Shown here: positions 14,275 to 37,185 of the stretch, piece by piece | Position numbering within the stretch: the stretch's first letter is position 1 | Layout of the letters: the number at the start of each line of letters is the position of its first letter | From: Cafeteria roenbergensis | Lineage: Eukaryota; Sar; Bigyra; Bicosoecida; Cafeteriaceae | Reading direction: 5' to 3' | Assembly (NCBI GenBank): GCA_008330645.1 | Contig: VLTN01000109.1 | Location: 1-37,185, forward strand | Length of the DNA: 37,185 bases | The notes under the pieces: generated by a model | What the model saw: the letters and a program-made list of their open reading frames with translations, nothing else | Databases searched by the model: none | Told to the model about the DNA's origin: nothing | Program-made: the position numbers and the translations under genes

Positions 14275-14542
14275 GGCAGCCAGTGCGGCAAGCACGAAAG
14301 CCCGTGGAACACGCTGCGACTGCAACTAACGGGGTCCGTTTATGCAAGCCGAGTCCGAGAACTATGGCAGAGCCAATCCCAAATAGGCAAAGGTGGGAAA
14401 CGCCGAGTTGACGCCGCCAGCTGCAGCGATCCGCCTGCGCCCCGGATTTCGCGCGCCTCGCGCGGCACCCCGCGCGCCCGCCGGCCAGACGCCGCCGCGC
14501 GCCTCGTGCTCCCGCGGACCAGGCCAAATCTCGCTCCCAGCC
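14275..14542. promoter_or_regulatory. Divergent promoter region with CCAAT box
   Basis: The basic-protein gene starts at 14274 on the minus strand and the EHD gene at 14543 on the plus strand, so 268 bases must serve both. A ccaat pentamer (14373-14377, in agccaatccc) lies 166 bases before the EHD start codon. A tttatgc run at 14339 is the only A/T-rich element. Assignment as promoter is by position, and the CCAAT call is weak because five bases occur often by chance. Confidence 0.4.
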
Positions 14543-17804: not shown

Positions 17805-20800
17805 ATGATTGCCGGGCTCTTCCTCGGCCTGGCGTGGCTGGCCTCGAGCGCGCGTGGTGCCAACCCCGGTGAGAAGAGGGGCGGCTTGGCCTGCCGCGCG
17901 AGCCCCGTGGAGCGCTTCCCTTGACGCAGGCCGATTGGCCCGTCTCTCCTGCGACTGGAGAAGCGTCCGGCCCGCATGTCCCGCCAAGCGCGGCAACAGC
18001 ACGAAGCACTGCAATGCCTTTTCCCCCCGCCGCCGCCTCGGGGGAGCTGCAGACCAGCGGAAGCCGCGAGCCTTGTGGTCAACCCTGACTGGCCTGTCCG
18101 GTCGGCGGTCGCGGTGCTCGAGACGGCCGGGGGCGCAGCTGCGCGGCGCGCAAAGCGATGACGGTGACGCGGCCACCTGGCCAAGCTGTCGCCGAAGCTT
18201 CTCGCTCTCTCGTCCTGCTCCACGCGCGCAGTCCGGACCCTGATCTCGACATCGAGCAACAAGAAGGACGTGTTCGACCTCAGGGACAAGTTTGGAAGCT
18301 CCTTCAGTCGCACGTCTTGGAGCAGCAGTGCTTGGGACGGTAAGTAAACCGCGCGCTGCTTCAACCAGCCGAACCGAAGCCTGCGCTGCGCCCCGAAGGC
18401 GAGCACCGCGTGTTCGGAGCCTTCTCCGCGATAGCCTGTGGTGCGTATGGCTTGCGACTGGGCCGATCCAACCGCAGACGCGTCGTGGTCAAAGACCAGG
18501 AGCTCGGCCTGCGACGACAAGCGGATTGGCATTGCGTTCCAGTTTAACGACGAGATGATTGTTCACGAGGTTGTCATCCAGTGGTACCCCGACTCGGGCA
18601 CTTCAGACCACTACGACGACAACCGGGCGATTCAGGTGCGCGTGGGCAACAACATGGGCTTCAACGACCGTCAGTTTGGAAACTCCGCCTACGACGACTG
18701 CCCCGGCACGAGCGGCTGGCAGGACACGGGTGGCAAGTGGACCGTTCGCCACTCGACCCTGAACCAAGCAGGCAAATACATTTCGTTCGTGGCCAAGTCG
18801 GACGACTGCGACTGCGACGACCGGCGCGCCCGCGCGCTCGGGAGCGCCAATGCATCCGAATTCGGCATGGCGTCAACCCACGGGCGGCGCCTTGCTTTCT
18901 ACTGCGGTCAGCGAGACTGCGCGAAGCTAGCGATCACGGACGCCTGGGCTTACCAGTACAGCTGCCCTGCGGGCACGTACCCGTCCGACGTGAATTCCGT
19001 GGCCAATGGCAACTGCGTTCAATGCGAAAGTGGCTATTGGTGCCCCGGCGGGGTGCTTGGCATGTCGGCGAGCACGTACAAGAACTCGTGCCCGTCCGGG
19101 AAGATCGGCTTGGGGAGCGGAAAGTCCTCGCAGGACGAGGCTTGTGGGGGCTGCCCCGCCGGTCAGGTCATCACCGGCAGCAGCTGCGCAGCCTGCGCGT
19201 CCGGGTCGTACTGCCCAGAGGACACACAGACTGAGTTCGACTGTCCCGCAGCCTTCTACTGCCCCACGCCCGCGTCCAAGGTTGCGTGCGGCGGAACCAG
19301 TCTGTGCCCCTTGCGGTCGACGGCTGAGCAGGACTGCCCGGCCGGGTATACGTGCAGCCAAGGACTGAAGGCGCAGTGCCCCCAGGGCTTTTTCTGCCCC
19401 GCAGGCCAGGGGACGGCCTCTCCTTGCGAGCAGGGCCACTTCTGCCCGGCAGGCGCAGCGTCGCAGACAGCGTGCTCCGTCGGCGAGCTCTGCCCCGCAC
19501 AGTCGGCCTCCGCGCAGCAGTGTCCGACAGGGAAGTACTGCTCGGCAGGCCTAGCGACGGCGTGCCCTGCGGGAACGTTCCGCGAGGCGACTGGCGCGGC
19601 AGAAGTGACCGACTGCGAGTCGTGCCCAGCAGGCACGTTCGGCGCGACCTCGGGCGGCTCGTCCGCCGCGCAGGCCTGCAGCCAGTGTGCGTCCGGCTCC
19701 TGGAGCCTCGCTCGCACGACGTCATGCTACCCTCGCCTCTTGCGCGTGGAGGCCGCCGACACTGACGGCGTGGAGACTGGCTTCTCGGTGCTGGACATCG
19801 TCACTCTGACCTTTGGCACGCCGGTGGCCAGCCCGGAGCAGCCGGGGACGACCGGTCAGCAGCTTCAGCTGCCCCCCGTGGGAGCCACAGCGACCTCGGT
19901 CCACGGAACGGGCGTGTACTCTGCCATCGTCTTCTGGTCGAGGAGCCTCTCGGACCCTGGCCGCGTCTTTTGCAGCTCCGGCGACGCGGCAGTCATCGCC
20001 GCGGTCGCCAGTCTCGCTGGTGTGAGCGCCGGCGCAGTCACGGGGTCCGTTGCGCTGCTTGGGGACGGCGCCACGCAGCTCGGCGCGGAGTGGACCACCG
20101 CGCTTACGCTCCGAATCGAGGTGCGGGACCCCAAGAACGTAGACCCGGACCTCGTCGATGTGGACGCGTCGCTCCTCAACGCCTTTCCCGCTCCCGGACG
20201 CATCGGGGGGCAGCTGGTGCCCGCCAACGCGAACGCGGAGGCCGGGGCCAACAGCGTGGTCGTGGGCGGCAGCTGGGGCGTGGCCGGTCCCCCTGCGCTG
20301 TCGTCGGTGATTCTGCGCGACACGGGGCGAGCGGAGGGCTTCGGTCCCGGGGACAGCATGGAGCTGCAGTTCAACCAGGTGCTGGGCGGCAAGAGCCTTG
20401 CGGCGGTGGCTCAAGCCTCTGGCGCCAGCTCGGTGGCGCGCGCCATTGTGGAGCTCTGGCCGGCGGGCGCAACGGAGCCGCTGGACGGATGGGAGGGTGA
20501 CGCGCAGTGGGCAACCCGCGAAAGCGTGAGCCCCGACGCGCGCCTGGTCGGAGCTGGCGACGTGCCGAGCCAAAACACCTCCGCCATCGTGGTGACGTTT
20601 TCCGCCGCTCCGGACGCCGCCGCCCTGTCGCCCGCGGCCACGGCCGCGCTCATGGGCGGCTTCCTCTCCGTGCGGGTGCTCACGGCGGCCGACCTGCGCG
20701 GCATACCCCCCATGCACGTGCTGCCGCCGGCCAACAACTCGGTGCTCTCCAAGGGCAGCTGGGGCGAGCTGCCCGCCACCCCCGTGTTCCGCTCCCACTC

Positions 20801-21420
20801 GGAAGCGTCTGCCGTCCTGTCCTGGCGCGAGCCCCACAGACCCCAGGGCACCCTCCGCGTGTCTGTTTGGGTGGGGCTGGGCCTTCAGGGCTTCGTCGCG
20901 ACGTGGTGCGACGCCGGGCCCATGGACGAGAGCCTGTCCGGCGCGGACGCGGGGCGGGACATGGTCGCCGTCGCGCGGGCAGCCTACCCGGCCGGCCTCG
21001 GCAACGCGTCGGTGGCGCAGGCGCTGGGCGCGTCGGGCGCGTGCGCCGCCGCCTTCGTCGAGCTGCCCGCCACAGATGCCGAGCTTGCAAGGGAAATCAC
21101 CCTGCCGCTGCTGCGCACCAGCACGGCCCGCCTCGACCCCTCGCGGTGGTTCCTCGTGGGCGTGGCTGCGGTGTTCAACGGCATTGTGGGCCCCTTTGCC
21201 CCGGCCGTGGACGCGACACCCATGCCGCTCGCGCGCGCGTCTCTGGGCCACGGCAAGCAGCCGTCAGGCGAGGCCGAGCTGCCGAGCACCGAGTGCGTGG
21301 TCCTCGACTGGGCCAGCCACGGCGGTAACGGCGCTGCCGCCGCCTGCGCCCCGAGCTCCGTAGCGCTCACGCCGCAGCAGCGCCGGGCCTGCCGCTGCCG
21401 ACTCCGCGGCGGCGGCGTCG

Positions 21421-21453
<33 letters not shown>

Positions 21454-24400
21454 GCGGCGGCGGCGGCGGAAACGACGTGCCGGGGGCCATGGGCGTCGCG
21501 GGTGGCTCTGCGCTCCTCTCCACCGTGGCCATGTCAGTGGATGGCGTCTTCACCACGAGCGAGCTAGGCACCGCGGGCGGGGAGTTCTTCAGCGTCATCG
21601 GCGACGGGCTCCCCATCTCCACGGCAGGCGCTGCCCTCTCCGCCGACCACGAGCAGGCCCTGAGGCCGCAGCTAGCCGCAGCCATGGAGGCCCTCGCGAC
21701 CAGGGAGGCGTCGCTCGACGGCCTCTGGAACGCCCCGCCCGCGGCCACCCGCGAGGCCGTCGTCACAGCTCGGGCCGCGGGAGCGGGCAGCCCGCTCACG
21801 CCCTACCTGGCTGTCTCGTACGGCGGCGGGACCGGCGGGAAGACGTACGAGGCGGTCGTCGACGAGTGCTCCGTCGTGACCGAGGGCCACGTGCTGCGGT
21901 GCCTGTCGCTGCCGGGGGTGGGCCGCGGCCACAGCGTGAACATCAGCGTCAACGGCTTCGGCATGCGGGCCCCTGCGCGAGCGGCGCTCGAGGTCAGCGG
22001 CGACCTCGTCACTTGGTACGGCGCCGTTGCCAAGGCGACGCTGAGCTACGCCGCCCCGTACATCCAGTCCTTCTCCTACGAGGCTTCGGACGGCCTGCCG
22101 ACCGAGGGGGGCACGCTGGTGACTCTGACGGGCCGCCACTTTGGGCCCGCCGGCGCCTCGCACGTGGACAGCGTTCGCTTCACGCCCTCCCGGCACAACG
22201 CCTTTGAGTTCGTCGCCGTCAACTGCACCGTGTCCGTGGCGCACGTGGCCATGCAGTGCGTCGCGCCGCCCAACGCGGGGGACCGTGCGTACTGGAACGC
22301 CACCGTCGCCAGCCAGGAGAGCTTGCTCCCTTCGACGTCGTCGGCGCCCCCCGGCATCACCGAGCTGCAGCTCGTCACGCGGGCGATGCTGGCCAGCGGC
22401 GCGGGCAGCAACGAAGGCCTGCGCAGCGCAGTGCTCCGGGTGCTCGGCAGGGCCTCGTCCGCGCCACCAGCCAACAGCTCCGGCGGGCAGGGGTCAGAGT
22501 CCCCGCCCGCCGCGAACTCGACCCTGCCGTCGAACGCAAGCGCCGGGAGCGGCGACGCTGTCCTTGATGCGTTCGACGCGGCCACAGGAACGGACGCCGC
22601 GTCGCTCATGGAGCTGCCAACGAGCGGCGGGTCGCTGGTGCTCATCCGGGGCCACGACTTCGGGCCGGACATGTCCTTCATCGCACGGGTGTGGGCCGTG
22701 CGGCCCGACGGAGTGCTGAAGCAGCTCTTCTCGCAGGACGTCGACGAGGCGCGCCGCGGGACCCTGGCGACAACGCCCACTGGCTGCGCCATGGCAGCGC
22801 AGCACACTGCTCTTGTGTGCCGCACGCTCCCGGGCGCGGGGCGCGGCTACTTCTGGCGGGTGCAGGTGCTGGATCAGAGCAGCGAGGCTGCGCCTGTTGC
22901 CACCTCGTACGCCGACGTGATCATCGACGAGATGCTGCCCAGCGACATTCCCTCCGAGGGCGGCACCGTGGTCGTGAAGGCCCGCAACCTCCCGCCCGAA
23001 AACGACGACCTCGTGCTGCGGCTCGGCTTCAACGGCGGAAACATCTCCCGCATCACTCGCAGCATCACCAGCCCGCTCACGGAGTTTGAGTTTGTCGCGC
23101 CGCCCGTCGTCGTCAGCCGAGTGATCGACCCCGCAGGCTCCAACGGCTCTTCGGCCGCGGCCTCTGACGAGGCCGTCCTCGTCCCCGTGACCCTCTCCGT
23201 CGCCGACCGCACCGCCGCGGCGTTCCTGCCCATTGCCCTGCCTCAGGTCGAACTGTTCGACGCCGACTCGCTGAAGCGGCGCCCCAGCGCGCTGGACGTC
23301 GACACGCCTCCCGCGGAGGCCGGCGGCCGCGACGCCATCCTGCTGGAGGTGTACGGCTCGAGCTTTGGCGGCAGCATTGACGGGATGCGACTCACCCTGG
23401 ACGGTGAGCTCTGCATTCCGCTCACCCTGCGGCAGATCGAGCTGCACCTCTCGCTTCCCAGCGCCTTTGACCCGCACCGGCAGTTCTTCTGCTGGACGTC
23501 CAAGCGCCAGGGCAAGCCCGCGCTGATCGACGTGGCCGCGAGAGAGGCCATCGGCTCGCCCAACTACGACTTTGACGCCATCAAGACGCCACCGACCCTG
23601 ACCTCCGTCGTCGTGGTCAACGCCAGTACCGACGTACAGGTGGCGACGGGCACCGAGCTCGACACTATGGGCGGCCAGCTCCTGCGGGTGAGCGGGGCCG
23701 CGCTGGCAGCGGTCACGTCCCTCGAGCTCATCGTGCTCGCCCCGGCCGCGTTCCCGTCCCAGCCTCCGAGCGAGCGAACGCCTCTGTTTGTGTCGCCGTG
23801 CGAGATGGTGCCTCGGCGCGACGTTGCAGAGTCCACGGGGGAAGACCCCTGCCCGTGGATCGGCGGGCGGATCGACGACCTCCCCGCATTCTGCGCCACG
23901 GACCGCGCGCTGTGGTGCCGGTCTACGGTCGGCATCGGCGGCTCGCTCTTCGTGCGCGCCGTGAGCGCGTCGGCTGCCGCCGAGGTGTCGGGGTGGTCCG
24001 CAAGCGCCATCGCCGGCTTTCGCCAGCCCGTCATGCACAGCGTGGCGCCGGCCACCCTGGCCACGACCGGCGGCGACACGCTCCAGGTCAGCGGGGCATT
24101 CTTCGGCTCAGCAGACCTCCCGCAAGGCGGCGCCTCGGCCGGCACTCTTGACGCGCCTGCCGTGCTCGTCGGGGGGCGGCCATGCCCGTTGCTCTCGCGG
24201 AACGACTCCTTCTTGGCGTGCGTGTCGCCGCCCGGGGTGCGAGGGCAGGAGGCCGTCACCGTCACGGTCCAAGGACAGGCGGCGCTTGCGAGCGGCGGCG
24301 CGGCGCAGGGCGAGGCAGGCCTTCTCGTGGCGTACCGTCCCCCGGTGGTCGAGCGCGTTCGTGGGTTTGAACTCGAGGGCGCGAGCGGGCCTGCGCCAAC

Positions 24401-27400
24401 TGCGACCCAGGAGACCGTCCCTGGCCGCTTGGAGCTCTCGACCCGCGGAGGCTGGCTGCAAGTCGTCGGGCGGGACTTTGGGGCCTCGCCGTCGGTGTCC
24501 CTGGAGGACACGGCAACGGGCGTCGCCATTGCATGCGCTGCCGATGACAGCGTCCGGCCAGCTGCCACCCCGGGCCACAACGAGACCTGGTGCCGCGTCG
24601 CGCCGGGAGACGGAACGTCCTACCGCGTCGTTCTGTCCACGGGCGCTGCCAGCCTTGGCGGCAGGACAGCGGTCGCGCCGATGCGTTTCGGGTTTCGCCG
24701 TCCCAGGATCGTCGCAGTCTACTTTGACACGCTGGACGCGACTGCGCCGCAGACTGCAGCGCTGACCCTCAACCGCGACGCAAGCCTCTCAAGTACAGGC
24801 AGAGTGCCAACGGGCGGCGGCTTCGTGCTGCACGTCGTCGGCGACAGCTTCTCGGCTTCCGCCCGCGTAGTGGTTGGCGGGCTTGCTTGCAACGTAATCG
24901 CCGGCGTTGTTCGGGCCGGAGCCCCGCTCGGCCTCGGCGAGGTTGTTGAGCTCGGGGACGGGGTCCGGGGAGCTGCCTACCTGCCGGTTGACCTCGACAC
25001 CTCTGGCCTGAAAGTGCCTGGCGCCTCCTTCACCGTGCGCCCCCCCGTCGCGGTGACGTCCCCTCCAGGGGAGGAGCGCCGCTGGGTCACGCACGAGCTG
25101 GTTTCGTGCGCTGCGCCCGCGGGCTCGGGCGCCGTGAACCTCACCGTCTTCTCGAGCTCGCAGCAGAGCTCCCAGCCTGTGCGAGTGAGGTACGATCCCC
25201 CGTCCGTGGCTTCCATCGCGCCGCCGTACGCCCGGGCGAACCTTCCCGACGCCGCTACCGCGCCGGACCTCAGGCTTGGCGGCGAGAACTTTGGAGCCGT
25301 GACTGTCGCCCTCGACACCCAAACTACGGTCGTTTCCGTGCTGGCGCGCAGGCTGCTGTCTGCCCCGCAGCCGGCTGCCTCGCCATCGGCGAGCGCGAGC
25401 GGACGGCGACGGCTGGGGGGCTCGGCGCTCGCGCTCCCAGAGGTGTCGCGCTTCGAGCCGCTGTGCGGAACCACGCTCATGTCCTCGCCGAACAGGGAGA
25501 TCCTGTGCTCTCCCGCGGTCAACACGTTTGTGGGCCTCCTGCTCGTGCAGGTCACCGTGAACGGCCAGCAAGCCCAAGAAAGGGCTCTCCTGACGCTGTG
25601 CCCTGTGAATTTCTTCGGCGGGCCCGGCGAGACCTGCAAGCAGTGCCCCGAAGGCGCATTCTGTGCGGGGGGCTTCTCGGAGCCCCAACCGCTCCCCGGC
25701 TACTTCAAGCGCGCTCCGTCCTCCTTCCTGGCCTGCAACCCGACCATCGCCTGCAGGGGAGCCGACGCTGCGGGCATCCCAAGAGCCGAGTTTCCGTTCC
25801 AGGACCTCACTGTCGGGCACTGGCAGCAGCAGTCAGTGGGCGTCAACGTCACCCTGGAGCCAACCTTTGCCGAGGCCCGGCAATCCGGGAACGGCGACGC
25901 AGCGCCGTCTGCCTCTTCGACACCCAGAGCCCTCGTCCGCAGGCGGGCGCTTGCTGGAGCCAGCAACGAGCCCACAGCCGCCGCCGAGAGCCAAGCCGCA
26001 GCCACCGAGGAGCTTCGTCTTGGGAGCTGGAACGAGGCCGCCGGGGCAAAGAGCCTGCCCCTGCACGCCGTCTTCCCCGCCAACGGCAGCCTGTCGATGC
26101 TGTTGGACCGCTACCGCCTGGAGGCGTCCACGGCCCTCAACTCGCAGTGCTTGCAAGGCTACCGCGGGGTGCGCTGCGCGGCCTGCGCGGACCGCTTCTA
26201 CCGCCTCGAGGGCCGCTGTGAGCCGTGCCCCGAGCTCGCCTGGCTCATGATCCCCGGCTTCATCCTGGGGCTGCTGGCCCTGCTCGGCGTGGCGTCCTTC
26301 CTCCAGAAGAAGAACGTGCAGCTGGCCGGGCTGTCCGTGGGCGTGGACATGATGCAGATTCTCTCCGTGTTCGCAGCGCTGGACCTGAGCTGGCCGGTCG
26401 AGATCCGCACGGTGTGGACCACGGTGTCCATGACGACGTTCAGCATCCAGATCCTCGCGCCGGAGTGCTCCGTCAAGCTCGAGTACGCCGACAAGTTCTT
26501 CGCGGTGGCCGCCATCCCGCCCGTGCTGGCAGCCGGGTGCCTGGCGATTGTGGCGTTCGAACTGGGCCGCCGCTTCACGAAGAGGTGGCGTCGCGCGTCC
26601 AAAGCCGCTGCCCAGAGCGCCTCAGAGCCCTCTCGGACAGCGGCCGAGACGCCGTCCTGCTGGACTGCCGCAGTCGCCTGCTTGACGTGCTCGCGCGGCA
26701 GCAGCGTGTCGCAATCCCGTGGCGGGGATGACGCCCGCCTGCCGCTGAGCGGCCCGCCGTCGCTCATTCCGCAGCCGGGAGGCCTGCAGGTGAGCGGGGG
26801 CAGCCACGCGTCCGTCGTGGCTCGCATGGCGGCGGCCTCTGGCCGAGCACAAGAGGGCAGCCTCGCGGCAGTGGCGCGAGCGACGGGAACGGCTGAAGAC
26901 GATGCTGACGACGGGGACCCAACCAAGCCCGCCTCGGCGGTGGCCGCCTCGGCCATTGACTCTGGCCTCGGCCTGGCGCTGACGCTGCTGTACTTTGCCT
27001 ACTTGACCGCCACGCGAAACGCCCTTCAACCTATGGACTGCACCGTGGTGGAGGCAGCGGACGGGTCTGGCAGCCAAAAGGTGATGAAGCTTGAGCCCTC
27101 GGTCGTGTGCGACGTGAGCTCGGACAAGACGTACGCCCAGGTCCTCCCTTGGGCAGTCATCACGCTCCTCCTCTACGGGCTCGGGATCCCGCTGCTCTTC
27201 GCTGTCATGCTCTTCACCAGCCGCAAAGCCATTGTGGCTGACCAGAAGTTGTTGGCGGTCGGCGAGGGCCACGTGAGGGCCACAAACCCCAACTTCTCGA
27301 CCCGGAAGCGCCTTGGGAGGCTCTACGCAGACTACAAGCCGGAGGTGTACTGGTGGAGGCTTGCCCTCACGGCCAGAAAGGCCCTCGTGGCGACGGTGTC

Positions 27401-28754
27401 CATCCTGTTCACTGGCACGCCGGTGTTTGCCGCCTCGGCCACTGCACTCATCCTCTTCGTGTCCTTCCTCATGCACTCCCGCTACCAGCCCTTCCTCCAC
27501 GCGCCGCCGGTCTCGAAGGCTTTCATGGCTCTTGCCGATGAGCTTGACGACGGAGCTGCGGGTGGCGAATCCTCGACTGCAAAGGGCGGCAAGGCGGCTG
27601 CGGGGTCGCCTGCCGGCGGCAAGGGGGCAGGTGGCAAAGGCACGGCCGCTGCGCGCCCACGCACAGGCTGCCGCCGGTGCGGGTGCAAGTGCCGCCGGCT
27701 GGGCCTTCCTGCCGGCCTGGCCATCTGCCTTCGCAACACGTCCCCAATCTTTGCGGTGTGCCTTGCTGCCGCGGAGTCAGACCTCGCCGCTCGCCGAGTA
27801 AACACGCGGCCGGCCATCAACTTCGAGCCCCCTCCCGCGCCCAAGCCGCGGGGACGCCGAGCCAGCATCGCTGTGAAGCTTGCCCGCCGAATGAGCCTGG
27901 GCGGGGCTGCCATTGCCGGTCGCATGACCGCTTCGAGGACAAAGGGCACCCCAGCGCAGGGCATGGGTCCCCTTGCCATCCAAATTCCCAAGGCGCCGTC
28001 GTCACCTCGGCACACTAGGCCCAGGAGCCCAAGCTCCCCAGTGTCCCCGCTAGCCAGCAGCCCGCCTGCAGCGGCTGCCAGGCGAAGCGCAAGGCTCGTG
28101 GCCTTTGCAGCGGCGGCCGCTCAGGCAATGGAGGCCCAGGCTCGGCAAGAGGCTCGCGAGGCTGCGCGTGCCGCCAAAGAGTCCTCCCTTTCGTTCGTGT
28201 TTGACTACAACACCCTTGAGGGATCGTTCTTGATCACCGGCGTGCTCGTTCTCATGGGAGGCCTCGCCTTTTCGTCCAACGCCATCAAGCCAGGATCCGT
28301 TGCATACGTCATCGTGGTGGCGGCCATTGTGCTGTTGGTGGTGGGTGCTCTTGGGAGCTTTGTTTGGATCCTCGGCTTCGAGCTGTACCGCTCTCTTCGC
28401 TTTGCGGATGTGCTAACCAAGGCTCGCATGTTCCAGGACTCGGTGCTCGCAAAGTCTGTCCGGGCTAAGCGGACAGCAAGCGTCCTCGCTCGGTTTGCGG
28501 GCGAGTCGGCGTCGAGCAAGGCGGCTGCGAAGTTGCGAGCCGTGGTTCGTGCCCGAGCCAACTCAAGGCAGCTGGAAAAGTCCCAGCCCATCCAGCCAGG
28601 GACGTCCTCGGCCCTGACATCGTCCCCGCCACTCTCGAGCCGCGCTATGGAGCCGCGCGGCAAGCAATCGCGAAGCGTGCCCGATCTGAGCCCGACCAGA
28701 TCGCGAGGAAACCCCCTCGCGATGCGAGACAGCTCCGAGAGGCGCAGACAGTGA
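17805..28754 (+). CDS. Gene B: giant IPT/TIG and cysteine-rich multi-pass surface protein (three exons)
   Basis: The exons are 17805-17868, 18232-18339 and 18478-28754. They sum to 10,449 bases, a multiple of three, giving 3,482 residues. Exon 1 encodes a signal peptide (MIAGLFLGLAWLASSARG). Residues 22-215 look like a discoidin/F5-8C-type carbohydrate-binding fold (VVIQWYPDS, IQVRVGNN). Residues 219-477 are ephrin-receptor-like Cys repeats (CPAGTY, CESGYWCPGG, CPQGFFCPAG). Next come beta-sandwich-like segments, a poly-Gly tract (about 1034-1055) and roughly eight IPT/TIG-like segments (about 1250-2340), each with a GGT-type start as in EGGTLVTLTGRHFGP. A second Cys-rich block (about 2430-2640, CKQCPEGAFCAGG) precedes a multi-pass region: seven or more helices to residue 3065, a disordered cytosolic loop, and two final helices (about 3307-3355). 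YKPEVYWWRLALTARKALVA is typical of the C-terminal module of large protist proteins of this class. Likely a plasma-membrane adhesion or sensor protein; ligand unknown. Confidence 0.8.
17869..18231 (+). other. Intron 1 of gene B
   Basis: The donor GTGAGA follows the signal-peptide exon after codon position 1. The acceptor is preceded by a long pyrimidine tract (cttctcgctctctcgtcctgc) and ends gcgcgcag. Splicing joins the signal peptide in frame to VRTLISTSSNKKDVFDLRDK. An earlier acceptor at 17929 would give a 61-base intron but leads into a frame with a stop at 18241-18243. Confidence 0.75.
18340..18477 (+). other. Intron 2 of gene B
   Basis: The donor is a consensus GTAAGT after SRTSWSSSAWD, again at codon position 1. 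The acceptor aaccgcag at 18477 restores the frame and gives AWDDASWSKTRSS. The nearer acceptor at 18434 (gatag) has a better pyrimidine tract but puts the next exon in the wrong frame. Confidence 0.7.
21406..21469 (+). repeat. (GGC)n trinucleotide repeat encoding poly-Gly in gene B
   Basis: About 21 codons of ggc are interrupted by two gtc (Val) codons, giving GGGVGGGGGGGGGVGGGGGG. The interruptions split it into three runs. It sits between beta-sandwich segments and would be a flexible linker. Its length could vary between alleles. Confidence 0.95.
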
Positions 28755-29480
28755 CATCGGGTCCTGCAATGTGCGGGACGCACTTGCTTGCGGCGAGACG
28801 TTACGGTGGGGTACGCCCGGGAAGCCCTCGTGGGCTTGAGCACCGGGTGCGCTCGCTTCTTGAAGGGCGCTAACGATTGACGATCGGCGAGGTGCAGCTC
28901 TGCCGTAGGAAGCAGAGCCACATGCGCTCGCGAGGTTTTGCGGTGGCGTTTCGACGCCAACCAAGTTGAACAGCAGCCCTAGTTTTCGATCATTCCCATG
29001 GTCCGAATCCGGCGGGTGGCAATGCTGCAGCGCATCACGCTTCTTCATCCACCCTCGGTTCGAGAAAGCATCACCCCGACGTCTCCATGTTGGGTGGAGT
29101 CATTCTCGCGCTCGATGGGTGTCGCGTGGGCGACGCGGCCGATATAGTATTTGACAACCTGACAACGACCTTTCGTGTCCTGGCAACTTTGCTCCTGAGC
29201 GAAACGTGTGCGTTGCCTCGCCCCAGCTTGGATCCGGCTTGTCGCCGACTGGAGGCAGGCTCAACCTGCGTAGTTTGTTTTTTTCTCGACGATGCCGCTT
29301 GCTCACCCTGCCTTCGTTTGAACTGGGAAACATCCATGTGGTTGCCGCGGCACGCGCACCCCGGGATGTGTCATCCGTGCAGTTGCGTCGAGCCTTCAAT
29401 CTGCCTTCGACTGCCACTTTGAATCGAGCGCAAACACACAGCGCAGAGCGCACACAAAACCGAGGTTGTCTCAGCACCAT
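28755..29480. other. Intergenic region between gene B and the retroelement array
   Basis: These 726 bases contain the 3' flank of gene B and then sequence of visibly lower GC than the genes. Open frames on either strand give no recognisable protein. A t-rich run (gtttgtttttttc) lies at 29275-29287. I see no target-site duplication or partial element before the first repeat at 29481. Confidence 0.5.
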
Positions 29481-29640
29481 TTGGGGGGTCCGAGGAGACA
29501 CTCGCGTCACCATGCCACACACTCGATTCACAGACTCATTAAGAACCAATCCAGCAACATCCATCACAGATGAATCACAAACCGCGCCAAACCCACAATC
29601 CCAAGTCCCAAGTCCCAGATCCCTGCCATCACACCGCTGT
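29481..29640 (-). repeat. Orphan 3' end of the retroelement (third copy)
   Basis: This matches the 3' untranslated region of the two larger copies, including ctcgcgtcaccatgccacac, the cacaaaccgcgccaaaccca block and the ccaagtcccagatc motif. It lacks the coding part. Its outer end has six G where the other copies have eight. About 44 unrelated or highly diverged bases (29641-29684) separate it from the end of copy 1. It is either a heavily 5'-truncated insertion or the remnant of an internally deleted unit. Confidence 0.85.
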
Positions 29641-29684
29641 CTGGTAACGCCTCCGATTCGCCCTGGTGCGTGTGATAAACATCG

Positions 29685-29864
29685 TTGGGGGGGGTCGAAA
29701 ACTCGCGTAACCATACCACACACTCGATTCACAGACTCAGCAATCACCAATCCAGCAACTCCATCACCGATGAGTCACAAACCGCGCCAAACCCACAATC
29801 CCAAGTCTCAAGTCCCAGATCACTCCCATCACACTGCCACGAGTCGCCAATCAGCCGCCCCTGC
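29685..29864 (-). repeat. 3' untranslated region of retroelement copy 1
   Basis: These 180 bases after the stop codon are markedly richer in A/T than the coding part. They contain short internal repeats (gggacttgagacttggga on the minus strand) and end in eight C. The same length and sequence, with few substitutions, follow copy 2. In RLE-type elements the 3' untranslated RNA is recognised by the reverse transcriptase for target-primed reverse transcription, so this is the likely priming structure. Confidence 0.75.
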
Positions 29865-32800
29865 TCACCGCATACGCTCCACCTGCTGTCGCAGGTACTG
29901 CGTCTGCCCGATCAGCTGGGTCGCCAGTCCCTTGGCGATGACCTCGTTCAGCCTCGACAGCCAGCGAAAGGCCCAGCGCGCACGCTCCCTCGGCCGGTCA
30001 CCAAAGGCCGTGTCCGCCACCTTCTTGAGGAAGGCGAAGGCCGCCGGTCCCATGCGTCCCGTGGTCGTGATGACGAAGGGCACAATGGAGCTCATGTTGT
30101 CCTTTGTAGCTGAGCTCTTCTTGTACTCCCTCATCTTGTCATTCTCACGGCGCTCGAGAAAGGCGTCCATGTTCTGCAGGCCCTGCGTCACGTAGGACTT
30201 GCTCACCGCCGAGGTGATCTGCACGTCGACGAGACAGGTGGTCTCGAAGTCGACGTGCACCCGCAGGTCCGGTCGCTTGCGCGCGGCCTCGCTGGACCCC
30301 GGCTGGGACCCGAAGCGCGTCTGCCCGTCCTGCCAGCTGGAGGGCTCCACCACCGACTGTAGTCCCGCCGAGCGCACCGCCGCGTGCAGGACGTCGCGGA
30401 CGTCGTTGTGCGCCCGGATGGTGGAGCCCTTGCCGCAGCGGCAGCGTGCCAGGTGGTGTGCCACGCCCGAGACCCCGCCGATGTGGACGGTGCCTCTCGC
30501 GGTGGTGTCCCGCTGCACGCACGCGCAGTTGATCGACACGCCGTCTGGCACCACGTGGTCGGCCTCGGAGGCTCCGATGCGGTAGCGTTCCACCACCGCG
30601 AACTCCTCGTCTGTGAGCCCGCGGGGCCCCATCATCGTGTTGCGGAGCCAGTAGTGCGTTCCCGGCACGCACGCCTCTCGGAACGCGACCAGGTCGCTCA
30701 TGACGCGCAGCATGGCCGGGTCGTCGATGTTGGCGACACGCTTCTCCGGCGTGTCCTTGGCCAGCGCCTCGGCCCTGCAGCGTGCTGTGCAGGCCCTGCG
30801 CGCCTTGGCCAGCCGGCGCAGGAAGACGCACTCGTGCTTGATGCGCAGCATGTCATCGTGGTGCAGCACCATCTTGCGCTGCCAGGGCGCCTCGGTCTGC
30901 TCGTTCGCCCGCGCCGTCACCCCGTCGCCGTACAGGCACTTGCGGAGCTTGGCCTTCAGCTCGCCCGGCAGCTTACCCAGGGTGTCGGGCAAGAAGCCCT
31001 CGAACCCTGTCGCTGCGGCCAGGCAGCGGGCTCCCTTGCAGGCCCTGATGAACTCCTCCACCAGGTTTGCCGCTGCCTCCATGTCATCCGACGACTCGTC
31101 GTCAGATCTGAGCTCCATCATCGCCTCCAGCGCCAGCTCCTCGATCTCGGCGCGCAGCTCTTCCAGGCCCTCGACAGCCCCCGCGATGTCCGACCTCCAC
31201 ACATGCGCCAGCTGGTAGCGCTTCTTCACCCTGGCGGCATGAAGGTCGGCTTCCTTGCCCACGACGCAGTCCTTGTCCGGCCTGAAGTACCGTGCCTCGG
31301 TGCAGGCGTCCTTGTACTCCTTGCTGTCCCGCTCGTAGTCCCGGTAGGCTCCCTTGGCGACCTCCTCGCATCGCAGCAGGATGTCGCCCACCTCCTTGGT
31401 CGCATCGCTGCGGTCTGAGCGCTTCAGCGAGCTCCTCACGAGTTTCTTGAGCGAGATGCCCTTCCAGTTGGGGTCGTTGCCGTCCGCGTCCGCGTCGGGT
31501 CCGTCCCTGGCCAACCCGATCGCCGGCGTTTGCCTGACCGAGTAGACCTGTGCCGCATCCGCTCTCGGCTGTGCGGCATCAGATGTCTCTTGGCCGGTTG
31601 GAGCGCCAGCCGCACTAGCTGCCGCTGCGCCGCCGCCGCTCGTCGTCATCTCGGTCGCCGCTCCCGCCGCGCTGGCGGCAGCCGCACCTCCGCCGACCGT
31701 CTGGCCCCCGCTTGTCGGTGTTGGCTGATGCCCCGGTTCAGCCGCTCCCCCCGTACCGCTGACGAGCCACCCATCCAGCGTACCTGCAAGCTGCTGCCCG
31801 TGCGCCGGGCCCTCCTCGCAGTCCTCCTTGGACTCGCTCTCTCCGACCGCCGGGTGGTCCACCCACGGCGTGCCGCCCGCTGCAGCAGCCGCCGCACCTG
31901 ACTCATCCTCCGCTTCCGCCTCGCCGGCGTTGGCTGGTCCCGCTCCGGCACCACTCCCCGACGCCGCTTCGCCTCCGCCTCCACCAGTGCCGGGTCCGTC
32001 GAGGGCCTCCTCCGGCGGTGGTGCCATCTCGAACCGCCCTTTCCGCATGTCCCGAACGGCCTCGATGAAGCCCGCTGTCGCCTCGAAGCGGAACTGCGCC
32101 ACGCCAGGCAGGCCCATGCCCCCGGCTTTGCAGCCCCTGCTCAGCATCTTTGCCAGCCTCATCTGAGCGTAGCCTCCCTTCTTCAAGGCCGGGTTGGACG
32201 CTGCCGATGCGAGCCGAGTCACACCGTCGGCTTCCCGGCCCAGGAGCGCCCACCACGCCTCCCGCCTTGCGTGCTCGTCCGGCAGCCCCCGAACAAGCGC
32301 CTCGATGGCCTTGGACATGGCCTCACGGAAGCCGTCCTCGGTCACCGTGCACATCTCGTCCGAGAGCGCGTGGCCGATCGCATCCAGCTCCGTCTTGTGC
32401 GCTACTGCCGACAGGTTGGCCAGCAGCGCCGCATGGAACACCGCCAGCTCCTGGCCCGCCGCCGCACCCGCTGCTCTGTGCAGGTAGCTGAACTTCTGGC
32501 CCACCACCGACAGCAGCAGGTGGTGCGCCCGCTTGAGCCCGCAGACCTCGATGCCCGCGAGCAGGCGCTCCGCGGCCGGCCCAAACTCTTTCTCCAGTCG
32601 CTTCATCGAGTGCTCAAGTGCCACCTCCGGCGGGAGTTCCTCCCCCACAGGACACTGCAGCACCGCCACGCTCCGTTCGGTGAGGTGGCACCCCTCCAGC
32701 ACCGAGGGTGGGGACCCTGGATCGTCCCTACTCCGCTTCATCTCCCGCCGAATTCTGGCTTTGGTTCTCTCGAGCTGTCCTCGCTTGCACAGCACCTGGG

Positions 32801-33677
32801 TCTTGTCGGCGTTCATCCGCAGCCCCACCGTGCTGAGCCGCTCGGCCAGCATCTGGGCTGCCTTGAAGGCGCTCCTCCTCGGGCCCACGAGCGTCGTGTC
32901 GTCGGCCATCTGCAAGATGAGCACATCTGGGAAGGCGCGCCTCACCTCGTCCACCAGGGGGTGCACTGCGATCGCAAACAGTGCGCCCGCTGCCGGGTCG
33001 CCTTGACGCACGCCCCTGTTGGACTCCAGCTCAAAGACCTCGCCCTCGTCCGTGGCAAAGAGGAGCGGGCTGGACGAGCCGTACAGCGCCAGCACCGCCG
33101 GCACGAGCTTCTCGTCCAACCGCCGCACCTCCTCGATCATCGCGCGCCTGGAGACGGAGTTGTAGGCGTTGGCCATGTCCAACGCTACCACCACCGTTCT
33201 GATCTCTCCCTCCTCGAACGCGGTGCGGACAGCATGGACCAGCCTGCACGACCCGTCTCGGCAGCCCAGGAACTGGAAGCGCAGCTGGTCCAGCAGTCCG
33301 TGCTTCCCCAGGATGGTGTTCACCACCTTGCCCACCAGCTTGCCCAGGCCCGAGACCATGGCCACCGGCCTGATCTTGCCGTTTCCCTTGGGAATCGCCA
33401 TCAGGGTTGACGACCCAAGGACCCTGCGCTCCTCGGCAGAGAGGTCGTTCCTCAACGCCCTTCGGACAAATGACACGAGCGCATCCAGGTCCTTCTCGGC
33501 GATGTTCTCCAGCTGCTTCGCGACCATGCCGTCCGGGCCCACGGCCTTCTTGTGCGGCATCGACTGAATCGCCGCCGACACCATTTCCCGGAGCTCGGAG
33601 TCGGTGAGGTCCGGCGCTTCTCCCTCCACTGTGCCGTCGACCACCTCGTCCTCGCTCGGGTGCAGGTGAATGAACAT
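29865..33677 (-). CDS. Retrotransposon polyprotein: reverse transcriptase plus restriction-like endonuclease (copy 1)
   Basis: The frame is 1,270 residues from the in-element ATG (MFIHLHPSED). RT motifs in order are AVGPDGM (45-51), ALDMANAYNSV (catalytic Asp 167), RGVRQGDPAAG (221-231) and MADD (257-260), the last giving the catalytic Asp pair. A thumb/connection region runs to about 550. Residues 550-705 are Gly/Ala-rich low complexity with a doubled GGGAAAASAAGA. A charged region of unknown function follows (about 735-1000). The C-terminus has CAC (1051-1053), HHLARCRCG (1074-1082), RAHNDVRDVL, then RPDL (PD at 1136-1137) and LVDV (Asp 1151), fitting the RLE nuclease of the R2/CRE/NeSL type. 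The frame is unbroken, implying recent activity. It also extends 13 codons upstream into copy 2's 3' end to an in-frame ATG at 33716. Confidence 0.88.
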   Translation of the reverse strand: MFIHLHPSEDEVVDGTVEGEAPDLTDSELREMVSAAIQSMPHKKAVGPDGMVAKQLENIAEKDLDALVSFVRRALRNDLSAEERRVLGSSTLMAIPKGNGKIRPVAMVSGLGKLVGKVVNTILGKHGLLDQLRFQFLGCRDGSCRLVHAVRTAFEEGEIRTVVVALDMANAYNSVSRRAMIEEVRRLDEKLVPAVLALYGSSSPLLFATDEGEVFELESNRGVRQGDPAAGALFAIAVHPLVDEVRRAFPDVLILQMADDTTLVGPRRSAFKAAQMLAERLSTVGLRMNADKTQVLCKRGQLERTKARIRREMKRSRDDPGSPPSVLEGCHLTERSVAVLQCPVGEELPPEVALEHSMKRLEKEFGPAAERLLAGIEVCGLKRAHHLLLSVVGQKFSYLHRAAGAAAGQELAVFHAALLANLSAVAHKTELDAIGHALSDEMCTVTEDGFREAMSKAIEALVRGLPDEHARREAWWALLGREADGVTRLASAASNPALKKGGYAQMRLAKMLSRGCKAGGMGLPGVAQFRFEATAGFIEAVRDMRKGRFEMAPPPEEALDGPGTGGGGGEAASGSGAGAGPANAGEAEAEDESGAAAAAAGGTPWVDHPAVGESESKEDCEEGPAHGQQLAGTLDGWLVSGTGGAAEPGHQPTPTSGGQTVGGGAAAASAAGAATEMTTSGGGAAAASAAGAPTGQETSDAAQPRADAAQVYSVRQTPAIGLARDGPDADADGNDPNWKGISLKKLVRSSLKRSDRSDATKEVGDILLRCEEVAKGAYRDYERDSKEYKDACTEARYFRPDKDCVVGKEADLHAARVKKRYQLAHVWRSDIAGAVEGLEELRAEIEELALEAMMELRSDDESSDDMEAAANLVEEFIRACKGARCLAAATGFEGFLPDTLGKLPGELKAKLRKCLYGDGVTARANEQTEAPWQRKMVLHHDDMLRIKHECVFLRRLAKARRACTARCRAEALAKDTPEKRVANIDDPAMLRVMSDLVAFREACVPGTHYWLRNTMMGPRGLTDEEFAVVERYRIGASEADHVVPDGVSINCACVQRDTTARGTVHIGGVSGVAHHLARCRCGKGSTIRAHNDVRDVLHAAVRSAGLQSVVEPSSWQDGQTRFGSQPGSSEAARKRPDLRVHVDFETTCLVDVQITSAVSKSYVTQGLQNMDAFLERRENDKMREYKKSSATKDNMSSIVPFVITTTGRMGPAAFAFLKKVADTAFGDRPRERARWAFRWLSRLNEVIAKGLATQLIGQTQYLRQQVERMR

Positions 33678-33679
33678 CG

Positions 33680-33859
33680 TTGGGGGGGGTCGAAAACTCG
33701 CGTCACCATGCCACACACTCGAGTCACAGACTCATCAAAAACCAATCCAGCAACTCCATCACCGATGAATCACAAACCGCTCCAAACCCGCAATCCCAAG
33801 TCTCAAGTCCCAGATCACTCCCATCACACTGCCTCGAGTCGTCACTCAGCCGCCCCTGC
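33680..33859 (-). repeat. 3' untranslated region of retroelement copy 2
   Basis: It is the same length as that of copy 1 and runs directly into the coding start of copy 1 without intervening bases. An ATG inside it (33716) is in frame with copy 1, so the tail of copy 2 doubles as the leader of copy 1. Confidence 0.75.
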
Positions 33860-36800
33860 TCACCGCATACGCTCCACCTGCTGTCGCAGGTACTGCGTCT
33901 GCCCGATCAGCTGGGTCGCCAGTCCCTTGGCGATGACCTCGTTCAGCCTCGACAGCCAGCGAAAGGCCCAGCGCGCACGCTCCCTCGGCCGGTCGCCGAA
34001 GGCCGTGTCCGCCACCTTCTTGAGGAAGGCGAAGGCCGCCGGTCCCATGCGTCCCGTGGTCGTGATGACGAAGGGCACAATGGAGCTCATGTTGTCCTTT
34101 GTAGCTGAGCTCTTCTTGTACTCCCTCATCTTGTCATTCTCACGGCGCTCGAGAAAGGCGTCCATGTTCTGCAGGCCCTGCGTCACGTAGGACTTGCTCA
34201 CCGCCGAGGTGATCTGCACGTCGACGAGACAGGTGGTCTCGAAGTCGACGTGCACCCGCAGGTCCGGTCGCTTGCGCGCGGCCTCGCTGGACCCCGGCTG
34301 GGACCCGAAGCGCGTCTGCCCGTCCTGCCAGCTGGAGGGCTCCACCACCGACTGCAGTCCCGCCGAGCGCACCGCCGCGTGCAGGACGTCGCGGACGTCG
34401 TTGTGCGCCCGGATGGTGGAGCCCTTGCCGCAGCGGCAGCGCGCTAGGTGATGCGCCACGCCGGAGACCCCGCCGATGTGGACGGTGCCTCTCGCGGTGG
34501 TGTCCCGCTGCACGCACGCGCAGTTGATCGACACGCCGTCCGGCACCACGTGGTCGGCCTCGGAGGCTCCGATGCGGTAGCGGGTGACCACCGCGAACTC
34601 CTCGTCTGTGAGCCCGCGGGGCCCCATCATCGTGTTGCGGAGCCAGTAGTGCGTTCCCGGCACGCACGCCTCTCGGAACGCGACCAGGTCGCTCATGACG
34701 CGCAGCATGGCCGGGTCGTCGATGTTGGCGACACGCTTCTCCGGCGTGCCCTTGGCCAGCGCCTCGGCCCTGCAGCGTGCTGTGCAGGCCCTGCGCGCCT
34801 TGGCCAGCCGGCGCAGGAAGACACACTCGTGCTTGATGCGCAGCATGTCGTCGTGGTGCAGCACCATCTTGCGCTGCCAGGGCGCCTCGGTCTGCTCGTT
34901 CGCCCGCGCCGTCACCCCGTCGCCGTACAGGCACTTGCGGAGCTTGGCCTTCAGCTCGCCCGGCAGCTTACCCAGGGTGTCGGGCAAGAAGCCCTCGAAC
35001 CCTGTCGCTGCGGCCAGGCAGCGGGCTCCCTTGCAGGCCCTGATGAACTCCTCCACCAGGTTTGCCGCTGCCTCCATGTCATCCGACGACTCGTCGTCAG
35101 ATCCGAGCTCCATCATCGCCTCCAGCGCCAGCTCCTCGATCTCGGCGCGCAGCTCTTCCAGGCCCTCGACAGCCCCCGCGATGTCCGACCTCCACACATG
35201 CGCCAGCTGGTAGCGCTTCGTCACCCTGGCGGCATGAAGGTCGGCCTCCTTGCCCACGACGCAGTCCTTGTCCGGCCTGAAGTACCGTGCCTCGGTGCAG
35301 GCGTCCTTGTACTCCTTGCTGTCCCGCTCGTAGTCCCGGTAAGCTCCCTTGGCGACCTCCTCGCATCGCAGCAGGATGTCGCCCACCTCCTTGGTCGCAT
35401 CGCTGCGGTCTGAGCGCCTCAGCGCCCGCATCACGAGTTTCTTGAGCGAGATGCCCTTCCAGTTGGGGTCGTTGCCGTCCGCGTCCGCGTCGGGTCCGTC
35501 CCTGGCCAACCCGATCGCCGGCGTTCGCCTGACCGAGTAGACCTGTGCCGCATCCGCTCTCGGTTGTGCGGCATCAGATGTCTCTTGGCCGGTTGGAGCG
35601 CCAGCCGCACTAGCTGCCGCTGCGCCGCCGACACCCGTCGTCATCTCGGTCGCCGCTCCCGCCGCGCTGGCGGCAGCCGCACCTCCGCCGACCGTCTGGC
35701 CTCCGCTTGTCGGTGTTGGCTGATGCTCCGGTTCAGCCGCTCCCTCCGTACCGCTGACGAGCCACCCGTCCAGCGTACCTGCAAGTTGCTGCCCATGCGC
35801 CGGGCCCTCGTCGCAGTCCTCCTTGGACTCGCTCTCTCCGACCGCCGGGTGGTCCACCCACGGCGTGCCGCCCGCTGCAGCAGCCGCCGCACCCGACTCA
35901 TCCTCCGCTTCCGCCCCGCCGGCGTTGGCTGGTCCTGCTCCGGCACCACTCCCCGACGCTGGCTCTCCTCCGCCTCCACCAGTGCCGGGTCCGTCGAGGG
36001 CCTCCTCCGGCGGTGGTGCCATCTCGAACCGCCCTTTCCGCATGTCCCGAACGGCCTCGATGAAGCCCGCTGCCGCTTCGAAGCGGAACTGCGCCACGCC
36101 AGGCAGGCCCATGCCCCCGGCTTTGCAGCCCTTGCTCAGCATCTTTGCCAGCCTCATCTGAGCGTAACCTCCCTTCTTCAAGGCCGGGTTGGACGCTGTC
36201 GATGCTAGCCGAGTCACACCGTCGGCTTCCCGGCCCAGGAGCGCCCACCACGCCTCCCGCCTTGCGTGCTCGTCCGGCAGCCCCCGAACAAGCGCCTCGA
36301 TGGCCTTGGACATGGCCTCACGGAAGCCGTCCTCGGTCACCGTGCACATCTCGTCCGAGAGCGCGTGGCCGATCGCATCCAGCTCCGTCTTGTGCGCCAC
36401 TGCCGCCAGGTTGGCCAGCAGCGCCGCATGGAACACCGCCAGCTCCTGGCCCGCCGCCGCACCCGCTGCTCTGTGCAGGTAGCTGAACTTCTGTCCGAGC
36501 ACTGACAGCAGTAGGTGGTGCGCCCGCTTGAGCCCGCAGACCTCGATGCCCGCGAGCAGGCGCTCCGCGGCCGGCCCAAACTCCTTCTCCAGTCGCTTCA
36601 TCGACTGCTCTAGAGCCACCTCCGGTGAGAGGTCCTCCCCCACAGGACACTGCAGCACCGCCACGCTCCGTTCGGTGAGGTGGCACCCCTCCAGCACCGA
36701 GGGTGGGGACCCTGGATCGTCCCTACTCCGCTTCATCTCCCGCTGAATTCTGGCTTTGGTTTCCTCGCGCTGTCCACGTTTGCACAGCACCTGGGTCTTG

Positions 36801-37185
36801 CTGGTGTTCATCCGCAGCCCCACCGTGCTGAGCCGCTCGGCCAGCATCTGGGCTGCCTTGAAGGCGCTCCTCCTCGGGCCCACCAGCGTCGTGTCGTCGG
36901 CCATCTGCAAGATGAGCACATCTGGGAAGGCGCGCCTCACCTCGTCCACCAGGGGGTGCACTGCGATCGCAAACAGTGCGCCCGCTGCCGGGTCGCCTTG
37001 ACGCACGCCCCTGTTGGACTCCAGCTCAAAGACCTCGCCCTCGTCCGTGGCAAAGAAGAGCGGGCTGGACGAGCCGTACAGCGCCAGCACCGCCGGCACG
37101 AGCTTCTCGTCCAACCGCCGCACCTCCTCGATCATCGCGCGTCTGGAGACGGAGTTGTAGGCGTTGGCCATGTCCAACGCTACCA
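33860..37185 (-). CDS. Retrotransposon polyprotein, copy 2 (5' partial)
   Basis: About 1,108 codons are visible, equivalent to residues 164-1270 of copy 1, starting in VALDMANAYNSV and running open to the same QVERMR end. By hand I count about 30 residue differences over the shared length, roughly 97% identity. They cluster in the linker after the MADD motif (NTSKTQ versus NADKTQ, KRGQREE versus KRGQLER) and in the low-complexity region. The RQGDPAAG, MADD, CAC...HHLARCRCG and RPDL...LVDV motifs are all retained. No stop or frame change occurs. The frame is open at the window edge, where the codon read as a start is TTG, so this is not the true N-terminus. Confidence 0.88.
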   Translation of the reverse strand, partial: VALDMANAYNSVSRRAMIEEVRRLDEKLVPAVLALYGSSSPLFFATDEGEVFELESNRGVRQGDPAAGALFAIAVHPLVDEVRRAFPDVLILQMADDTTLVGPRRSAFKAAQMLAERLSTVGLRMNTSKTQVLCKRGQREETKARIQREMKRSRDDPGSPPSVLEGCHLTERSVAVLQCPVGEDLSPEVALEQSMKRLEKEFGPAAERLLAGIEVCGLKRAHHLLLSVLGQKFSYLHRAAGAAAGQELAVFHAALLANLAAVAHKTELDAIGHALSDEMCTVTEDGFREAMSKAIEALVRGLPDEHARREAWWALLGREADGVTRLASTASNPALKKGGYAQMRLAKMLSKGCKAGGMGLPGVAQFRFEAAAGFIEAVRDMRKGRFEMAPPPEEALDGPGTGGGGGEPASGSGAGAGPANAGGAEAEDESGAAAAAAGGTPWVDHPAVGESESKEDCDEGPAHGQQLAGTLDGWLVSGTEGAAEPEHQPTPTSGGQTVGGGAAAASAAGAATEMTTGVGGAAAASAAGAPTGQETSDAAQPRADAAQVYSVRRTPAIGLARDGPDADADGNDPNWKGISLKKLVMRALRRSDRSDATKEVGDILLRCEEVAKGAYRDYERDSKEYKDACTEARYFRPDKDCVVGKEADLHAARVTKRYQLAHVWRSDIAGAVEGLEELRAEIEELALEAMMELGSDDESSDDMEAAANLVEEFIRACKGARCLAAATGFEGFLPDTLGKLPGELKAKLRKCLYGDGVTARANEQTEAPWQRKMVLHHDDMLRIKHECVFLRRLAKARRACTARCRAEALAKGTPEKRVANIDDPAMLRVMSDLVAFREACVPGTHYWLRNTMMGPRGLTDEEFAVVTRYRIGASEADHVVPDGVSINCACVQRDTTARGTVHIGGVSGVAHHLARCRCGKGSTIRAHNDVRDVLHAAVRSAGLQSVVEPSSWQDGQTRFGSQPGSSEAARKRPDLRVHVDFETTCLVDVQITSAVSKSYVTQGLQNMDAFLERRENDKMREYKKSSATKDNMSSIVPFVITTTGRMGPAAFAFLKKVADTAFGDRPRERARWAFRWLSRLNEVIAKGLATQLIGQTQYLRQQVERMR

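Follow-up and report, generated by a model that had tools for sequence, protein, structure and literature searches.

The array and its element

We analyzed a 37,185-bp stretch of the Cafeteria roenbergensis genome (hereafter the window), which is the whole of contig VLTN01000109.1 (C109 in our numbering) in an assembly of 36.3 Mb in 167 contigs, and which carries an array of a non-long terminal repeat (non-LTR) retrotransposon at its right end. The GC content of the window is 58–76% per kb. Between positions 29479 and 37185, one element is present three times, as two longer copies and a short 3' fragment, head to tail and in a single orientation, and the right contig end cuts the array. The two longer copies are 97.3% identical over 3,534 nt (29658–33190 versus 33652–37185), and their conserved 3' terminus, AACATCGTTGG, starts at 29678 in copy 1 and at 33673 in copy 2, giving an offset of exactly 3,995 bp. 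The 3' end of the short fragment, copy 3 (29500–29637), shares 90.6% and 92.0% identity with the two longer copies. The features of the array, including the open reading frames (ORFs), are:

29479..29637, minus strand: copy 3, the innermost 5'-truncated 3'-end fragment, about 160 nt, adjoining chromosome-interior DNA (90.6–92.0% identity to copies 1 and 2)
29638..29674, no strand: non-element spacer of 37 nt; a 40-nt filler when counted up to AACATCG, which includes the last bases before AACATCG
29675..33667, minus strand: copy 1, a 5'-truncated element with its 3' end toward the chromosome interior (repeat comparison and junction reading)
29678..29697, minus strand: conserved 3' terminus of copy 1, an oligo-C run followed by CAACGATGTT, without poly-A (sequence reading)
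29865..33667, minus strand: copy 1 ORF, N-terminally truncated; the open frame continues into the 3' end of copy 2
32787..33395, minus strand: copy 1 reverse transcriptase domain (Pfam RVT_1, E 3.2e-20; QMADD motif at 32886–32915)
30225..30527, minus strand: copy 1 restriction-like endonuclease (RLE) motif block, CxC-x21-Hx3C-x8-RxHN ... RPD-x13-D (motif)
33668..33672, minus strand: 5-nt 3' tail of copy 2, GAATG on the plus strand, abutting copy 1 at its truncated 5' end
33668..37185, minus strand: copy 2, cut by the right contig end
33860..37183, minus strand: copy 2 ORF, running off the contig end, with RLE motifs at 34220–34522 and the reverse transcriptase motif at 36881–36910

Repeat alignment bore out the first-pass annotation, which had described two units at this offset plus a third 3' end in the same orientation. 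The same annotation placed no host DNA at the junction between copies 2 and 1, and indeed the 5-nt tail alone separates them at 33667/33668, while the 37 nt between copies 3 and 1 have no match to the element. The element is the sole direct-repeat family in the window (ungapped repeats of at least 100 nt) and was found on 55 contigs including this one, so chance is ruled out as an explanation.

Protein identity between copies 1 and 2, earlier put at about 97%, is 97.3% over the shared ORF. Neither copy has internal stops; because both are incomplete on the 5' side, the description of their frames as intact needs correction. For this one pair, nonsynonymous divergence (dN) is 0.0136 and synonymous divergence (dS) is 0.0530, with a dN/dS ratio of 0.26 and 46 of the 76 mismatches at third codon positions, showing purifying selection. 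The open frames together with this ratio and a dS of 0.053 suggest that the source copies code for a working protein.

Fuller copies begin with 72-bp tandem repeats on the 5' side, followed by the long ORF. The repeats amount to 14.8 copies at 99% identity in locus L131, where they extend up to the locus edge, and are fewer and degraded in locus L126. The long frame in L131 stays open through the repeats as well, which makes the choice of start codon a guess. Counted from the methionine of MTAPQM..., 554 codons lead to the approach of the reverse transcriptase domain, and this N-terminal part holds an acidic stretch and a zinc-finger-like CKRC...HGC motif (CxxC...HxC). Copy 1 lacks roughly the first 554 codons, counted from the likely start, and contributes some 1,266 codons from that point, for a full protein of about 1,820 amino acids (aa) as the sum of two loci, L131 and window copy 1, with no single locus read end to end. 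RVT_1 was the only Pfam family matched in the 1,288-aa copy 1 ORF, and nothing in Pfam matched the 1,166-aa 5' reading of L131. The best Protein Data Bank (PDB) matches of the reverse transcriptase domain are R2 chains (E 4.6e-5), then LINE-1. A reverse transcriptase of the LINE/R2 type and frequent 5' truncation with a constant 3' end both mark the element as a non-LTR retrotransposon. The C-terminal motifs CxC-x21-Hx3C-x8-RxHN and RPD-x13-D occur as 13 distinct strings among the loci analyzed; their order is that of restriction-like endonucleases, and at the motif level the element is RLE-type (R2/CRE-like), as it had been labeled from the start. About 190 nt of 3' untranslated region (UTR) lie between the stop codon and the 3' end, whose sequence is nearly constant and consists of C8, CAACGATG and a short TTCA-type tail. 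On the sense strand the element ends in ...CGAGTTTTCGACCCCCCCCAACGATGTTCA(TTCA)n, without poly-A. No relatives were confirmed in IMG/VR.

Orientation and junctions across the assembly

Four DNA searches of the genome gave 48, 47, 14 and 49 matches, in which one copy can recur between searches; three of them scored the best 40 of 217, 296 and 299 candidates, and the search with the 5' region scored all 14. Among the matches listed, 150 of 158 have their 5' side toward the nearer end of their contig. On contigs of at least 100 kb, 116 of the 120 listed matches are oriented with the 3' end inward, and 45 of 48 contig/orientation groups are fully concordant. Contigs C3, C17, C28 and C30 carry opposite orientations at their opposite ends, and the 5'-region search found 13 of 14 matches concordant, the exception being on a 40-kb contig. 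We also inspected the ends of C1–C20 regardless of matches. One of these 40 ends reads as N, and the left end of C3, itself in the reference, runs on into the element; the element lies within the terminal 500 bp at 12 of the 39 readable ends, 11 of them in the expected orientation. In ten further contigs (C21–25, 27, 29 and 32–34) it was present at 4 of 20 ends, all in the expected orientation. Most of the sampled contig ends have no element in their last 500 bp, and many contigs may end inside chromosomes.

With contig ends standing in for chromosome ends, head-to-tail arrays are thus located at chromosome ends with the 3' end inward, as in HeT-A. Among the mechanisms listed in the first-pass annotation, telomere-type attachment is the one that the genome backs, and a majority of solitary copies at unrelated sites, which would have spoken against it, was looked for and not seen among the matches listed. 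On the orientation and place of these matches, we reject an ordinary dispersed long interspersed nuclear element (LINE). That the contigs simply broke in repeats and were misassembled into tandem order we regard as very improbable: repeats are a common place for contigs to end, and many of ours stop within the element, but breakage at dispersed repeats should leave both orientations equally often, against 45 of 48 groups with one orientation here, and some contigs run right through arrays of several copies with different truncations. A pure assembly artefact was rejected on the single orientation and the many distinct junctions.

The loci analyzed contain 70 distinct 3' junctions, at 56 of which a 5'-truncated copy follows within 1–63 nt. 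The distance is at most 10 nt, mostly tail, at 44 of the 70 and at most 24 nt at 52. The remaining 14 adjoin sequence unmatched to the element references, although at least one of them (L035) adjoins the 72-bp 5' repeat rather than host DNA. The 56 tandem junctions mostly have different truncation points, and tail lengths and filler vary too. Independent additions fit this variety, and simple exchange does not, which makes it quite unlikely that recombination (unequal exchange or break-induced replication) acting on a few insertions, instead of repeated transposition, was the main source of the arrays. Recombination is nevertheless visible in places, as units of equal length: 389 bp at C4:5423-6429 and C14:7270-7884, and 1,053 bp on C76. 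Unequal crossing-over, suggested early on, therefore acts locally but on its own fails to explain one orientation with differing truncation points at many contig ends. Multiplication of units by recombination or copying is likewise reported for MoTeR arrays (PMC7367193). On C76 (121125-146765), units also show a spacing of 8.3–8.9 kb.

Short telomere-like filler is present at a minority of junctions. Of 72 junctions in the loci analyzed, 8 have TTAGG no more than 25 nt from the 3' end, compared with 0.2% of random 25-mers drawn from these loci, and 14 have TAGG there, compared with 1.3%; the reverse complement CCTAA was found near the 3' end at none of the 72. The 14 TAGG junctions span nine contigs. 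Because one of them belongs to the element itself and another is a single base away from that sequence, 12 look added. Examples of the filler are AATATAGGTTAGGTTGACTG, GGATAAGATTTAGGTATGAATG and GTTAAGGTTTAGACTAGATTAACG. It is short, irregular and TTAGG-like and lies on the outward G-strand, with the strand bias of telomere DNA pointing outward.

Exact pattern searches of the assembly found no three consecutive units of TTAGG, TTAGGG, TTTAGGG or TTTTAGGG. Among 89 contig ends scanned, some chosen for having matches and one reading as N, a single end (C7 left) has at least two CCTAA in its last 150 nt; it consists of ACCCTAACCTAACCCAACC, then DIRS-like sequence, then the element 3.3 kb inward in the expected orientation. 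Terminal repeats are often lost in assemblies, as the FoTeR study states for its own (PMC12857005). Of the earlier question whether arrays lie at contig ends beside telomere repeats, the nearness to the ends was borne out and the repeats were not found, and the comparison with SART and TRAS falls away, as no telomere-repeat tracts turned up in the pattern searches; SART/TRAS-like insertion into such tracts was rejected for this reason. In a broader form, a site-specific element would nick and insert into telomere-repeat tracts, as proposed for MoTeR, FoTeR, SART and TRAS, the tracts would be lost later and the arrays would be secondary. The conserved RLE motifs, the TTAGG-like nucleotides at some junctions and the similar anatomy described for FoTeR and MoTeR are in keeping with this, while the missing three-unit runs and the near-direct joining of tail to truncated copy at 44 junctions argue against it, and we judge it rather unlikely.

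Searches of the genome with the Telomerase_RBD and TERT_C families and with a human TERT reverse transcriptase query gave no match; these are uninformative, since the families also match none of 14 control genomes and no control was available for the query. As a check of the method with an unrelated family, the DNA primase large subunit was found in the genome (E 6.8e-76).

Proposed addition at chromosome ends and known systems

We consider it very likely that the array in the window is the inner part of a chromosome-end array, and that the element is a telomere-attached RLE-type retrotransposon added by target-primed reverse transcription. The arrays probably help maintain the chromosome ends. 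A further-reaching proposal, possible if somewhat doubtful, is that many or most chromosome ends are kept mainly by this RLE-type retrotransposon, with telomerase lost or reduced to adding a handful of irregular TTAGG-type nucleotides on which the element primes.

In the mechanism that we propose, the element protein would allow the 3' hydroxyl at a chromosome end to serve as the primer from which the element RNA is reverse-transcribed, starting at its tail. The RNA is predicted to end in GUUCAUUCA or close to it, and the first cDNA bases would be (TGAA)nCATCGTTGGGGGGGG. Each event would add a copy with its 5' side outward, and the newly exposed 5' end would erode, so that incomplete synthesis or erosion could produce the 5' truncation. 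The end may sometimes gain a few irregular TTAGG-type nucleotides by telomerase-like healing, and the healed or eroded end would prime the next copy. Repeated rounds, with some unequal exchange or break-induced copying, would yield the arrays. A part for the endonuclease in this is unproven; candidates are nicking of duplex close to the end and some other step for which it is kept.

Several observations weigh against chromosome-end addition of this kind. Contig ends are not proven chromosome ends, and several arrays are non-terminal in their contig, with DIRS-like or virus-like DNA distal to them. The matches that face the farther end are two at the right end of C85 (98142 and 99725), C59:32737, C12:32853, three on the 40-kb C107 and one on the 31-kb C114, and the left end of C10 holds an element fragment that is also wrongly oriented. 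Both C85 and C10 lie against a DIRS-like terminal repeat, so the cause there may be rearrangement. Searches that scored the best 40 of their candidates may have overlooked internal or diverged copies. TAGG is absent from 58 of the 72 junctions, and pyrimidines prevail on the outward array strand (GC skew about -0.19, AT skew about -0.3), opposite to the composition of canonical telomeres. The RLE assignment is motif-based, with a PDB sequence search of the RLE part giving only an unrelated protein (E 0.38), and the CCHC spacing is longer than the MoTeR pattern quoted in PMC12857005.

The wrong-way copies on C85 extend over 98142-101936. Those at C12:32853 and C59:32737 are short 5'-truncated pieces and perhaps relics, and just ahead of the C12 copy lies a 9-nt inverted match to the 3' end of the element itself, perhaps by chance or perhaps as the trace of a fusion or inversion.

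HeT-A, TART and TAHRE are not RLE-type, Zepp is placed with L1-type elements in Chlorella, which has telomere repeats, and SART and TRAS carry another endonuclease type and sit in telomere-repeat tracts. The APE-type endonuclease and insertion within TTAGG tracts that define SART and TRAS were not found in our element, for which Pfam gave RVT_1 only and pattern searches no three-unit TTAGG run. It shares with HeT-A, TART and TAHRE of Drosophila the head-to-tail arrays replacing telomere repeats, with 3' ends toward the centromere, and the terminal target-primed reverse transcription described there is what we propose here; their poly-A tails are absent from our element, and telomerase loss is established in their case (PMC5537684, PMC4700185). 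Zepp of Chlorella vulgaris is a non-LTR element at microalgal telomeres (PMC10088271, PMC5537684). GilM and GilT of Giardia also form one-direction head-to-tail arrays at chromosome ends with 5' truncations, but are described as lying between subtelomere and telomere repeats and as having unusually long 3' UTRs, in contrast to the 190-nt 3' UTR and lack of a canonical repeat run here (PMC5537684, PMC10088271).

In working, the element also resembles FoTeR of Fusarium oxysporum and MoTeR1 of Magnaporthe oryzae, of the CRE-type clade, which are RLE-type with a long reverse transcriptase ORF, confined to or embedded at chromosome ends, frequently truncated and flanked by telomere-like DNA at their 3' junctions (PMC12857005, PMC7367193). 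FoTeR is further described with N-terminal zinc-finger motifs and tandem repeats upstream of its ORF, as in our element. The REL spacing quoted for MoTeR1, C-x2-C-x6-H-x3-C-x9-RHD (PMC12857005), differs from the CxC-x21-Hx3C-x8-RxHN found here. FoTeR junctions are reported to carry 3–7 canonical repeats, whereas ours have short irregular TTAGG-like bits at most, and most copies join almost directly. As neither this spacing nor several canonical telomere repeats at the 3' junctions were found, we liken the element to FoTeR and MoTeR by analogy and do not assign it to their clade.

The sources that we cite name few lineages with chromosome-end retrotransposons, with Drosophila as the well-established telomerase-free case. 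Among the papers listed in searches of the open-licence literature, we found the known cases and no RLE-type telomeric element of an alga or similar organism; one may still have been published elsewhere. Chromosome-end retrotransposons as such are already known; new here would be an RLE-type element at such ends with nearly repeat-free junctions. With an RLE-type element in a GC-rich eukaryote, telomere-like nucleotides recorded at some junctions ahead of an addition and no canonical run found in the assembly, the change from telomerase to retrotransposon would become open to direct test. The case also bears on whether an element that retains its endonuclease can prime from natural ends. If chromosome ends are indeed maintained by this retrotransposon, they would represent a second origin of retrotransposon-built telomeres, outside insects and with a different endonuclease class, and a mixed state in which single junctions preserve traces of both ways of extending an end.

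Neighboring DNA

A DIRS-like retrotransposon family occurs in or next to arrays at L020, L032, L048, C7:1-3338 and L080, with reverse transcriptase and tyrosine-recombinase-like ORFs recognized by eye in C7 and C107. A relic of its terminal repeat lies in the window just interior to the array (28793–29000) and is about 91% identical to three other contig ends. Distal to the arrays at C1 (L079:2095-5000, equal to C1:1521595-1524500) and C8 (L157, equal to C8:741501-744500), the GC content is 46% and 41%, respectively. These two stretches have translated sequence in common and contain an integrase-core ORF, a DUF3223/HNH-like ORF (C1) and ankyrin repeats (C8), and the C1 stretch opens with a 132-bp perfect palindrome; by eye, this DNA looks like a Polinton-like or other virus-like element.

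Interior to the array, the window has open frames at 14387–16345 (an EHD-type GTPase with an EH domain), 18435–28754 (a 3,439-aa stop-to-stop frame with a TIG domain) and 5383–9066 (a TRP-channel match). It also includes a 36-bp tandem repeat at 12158–12327 (4.7 copies, 98%), whose frame encodes alanine/lysine/proline-rich repeats.

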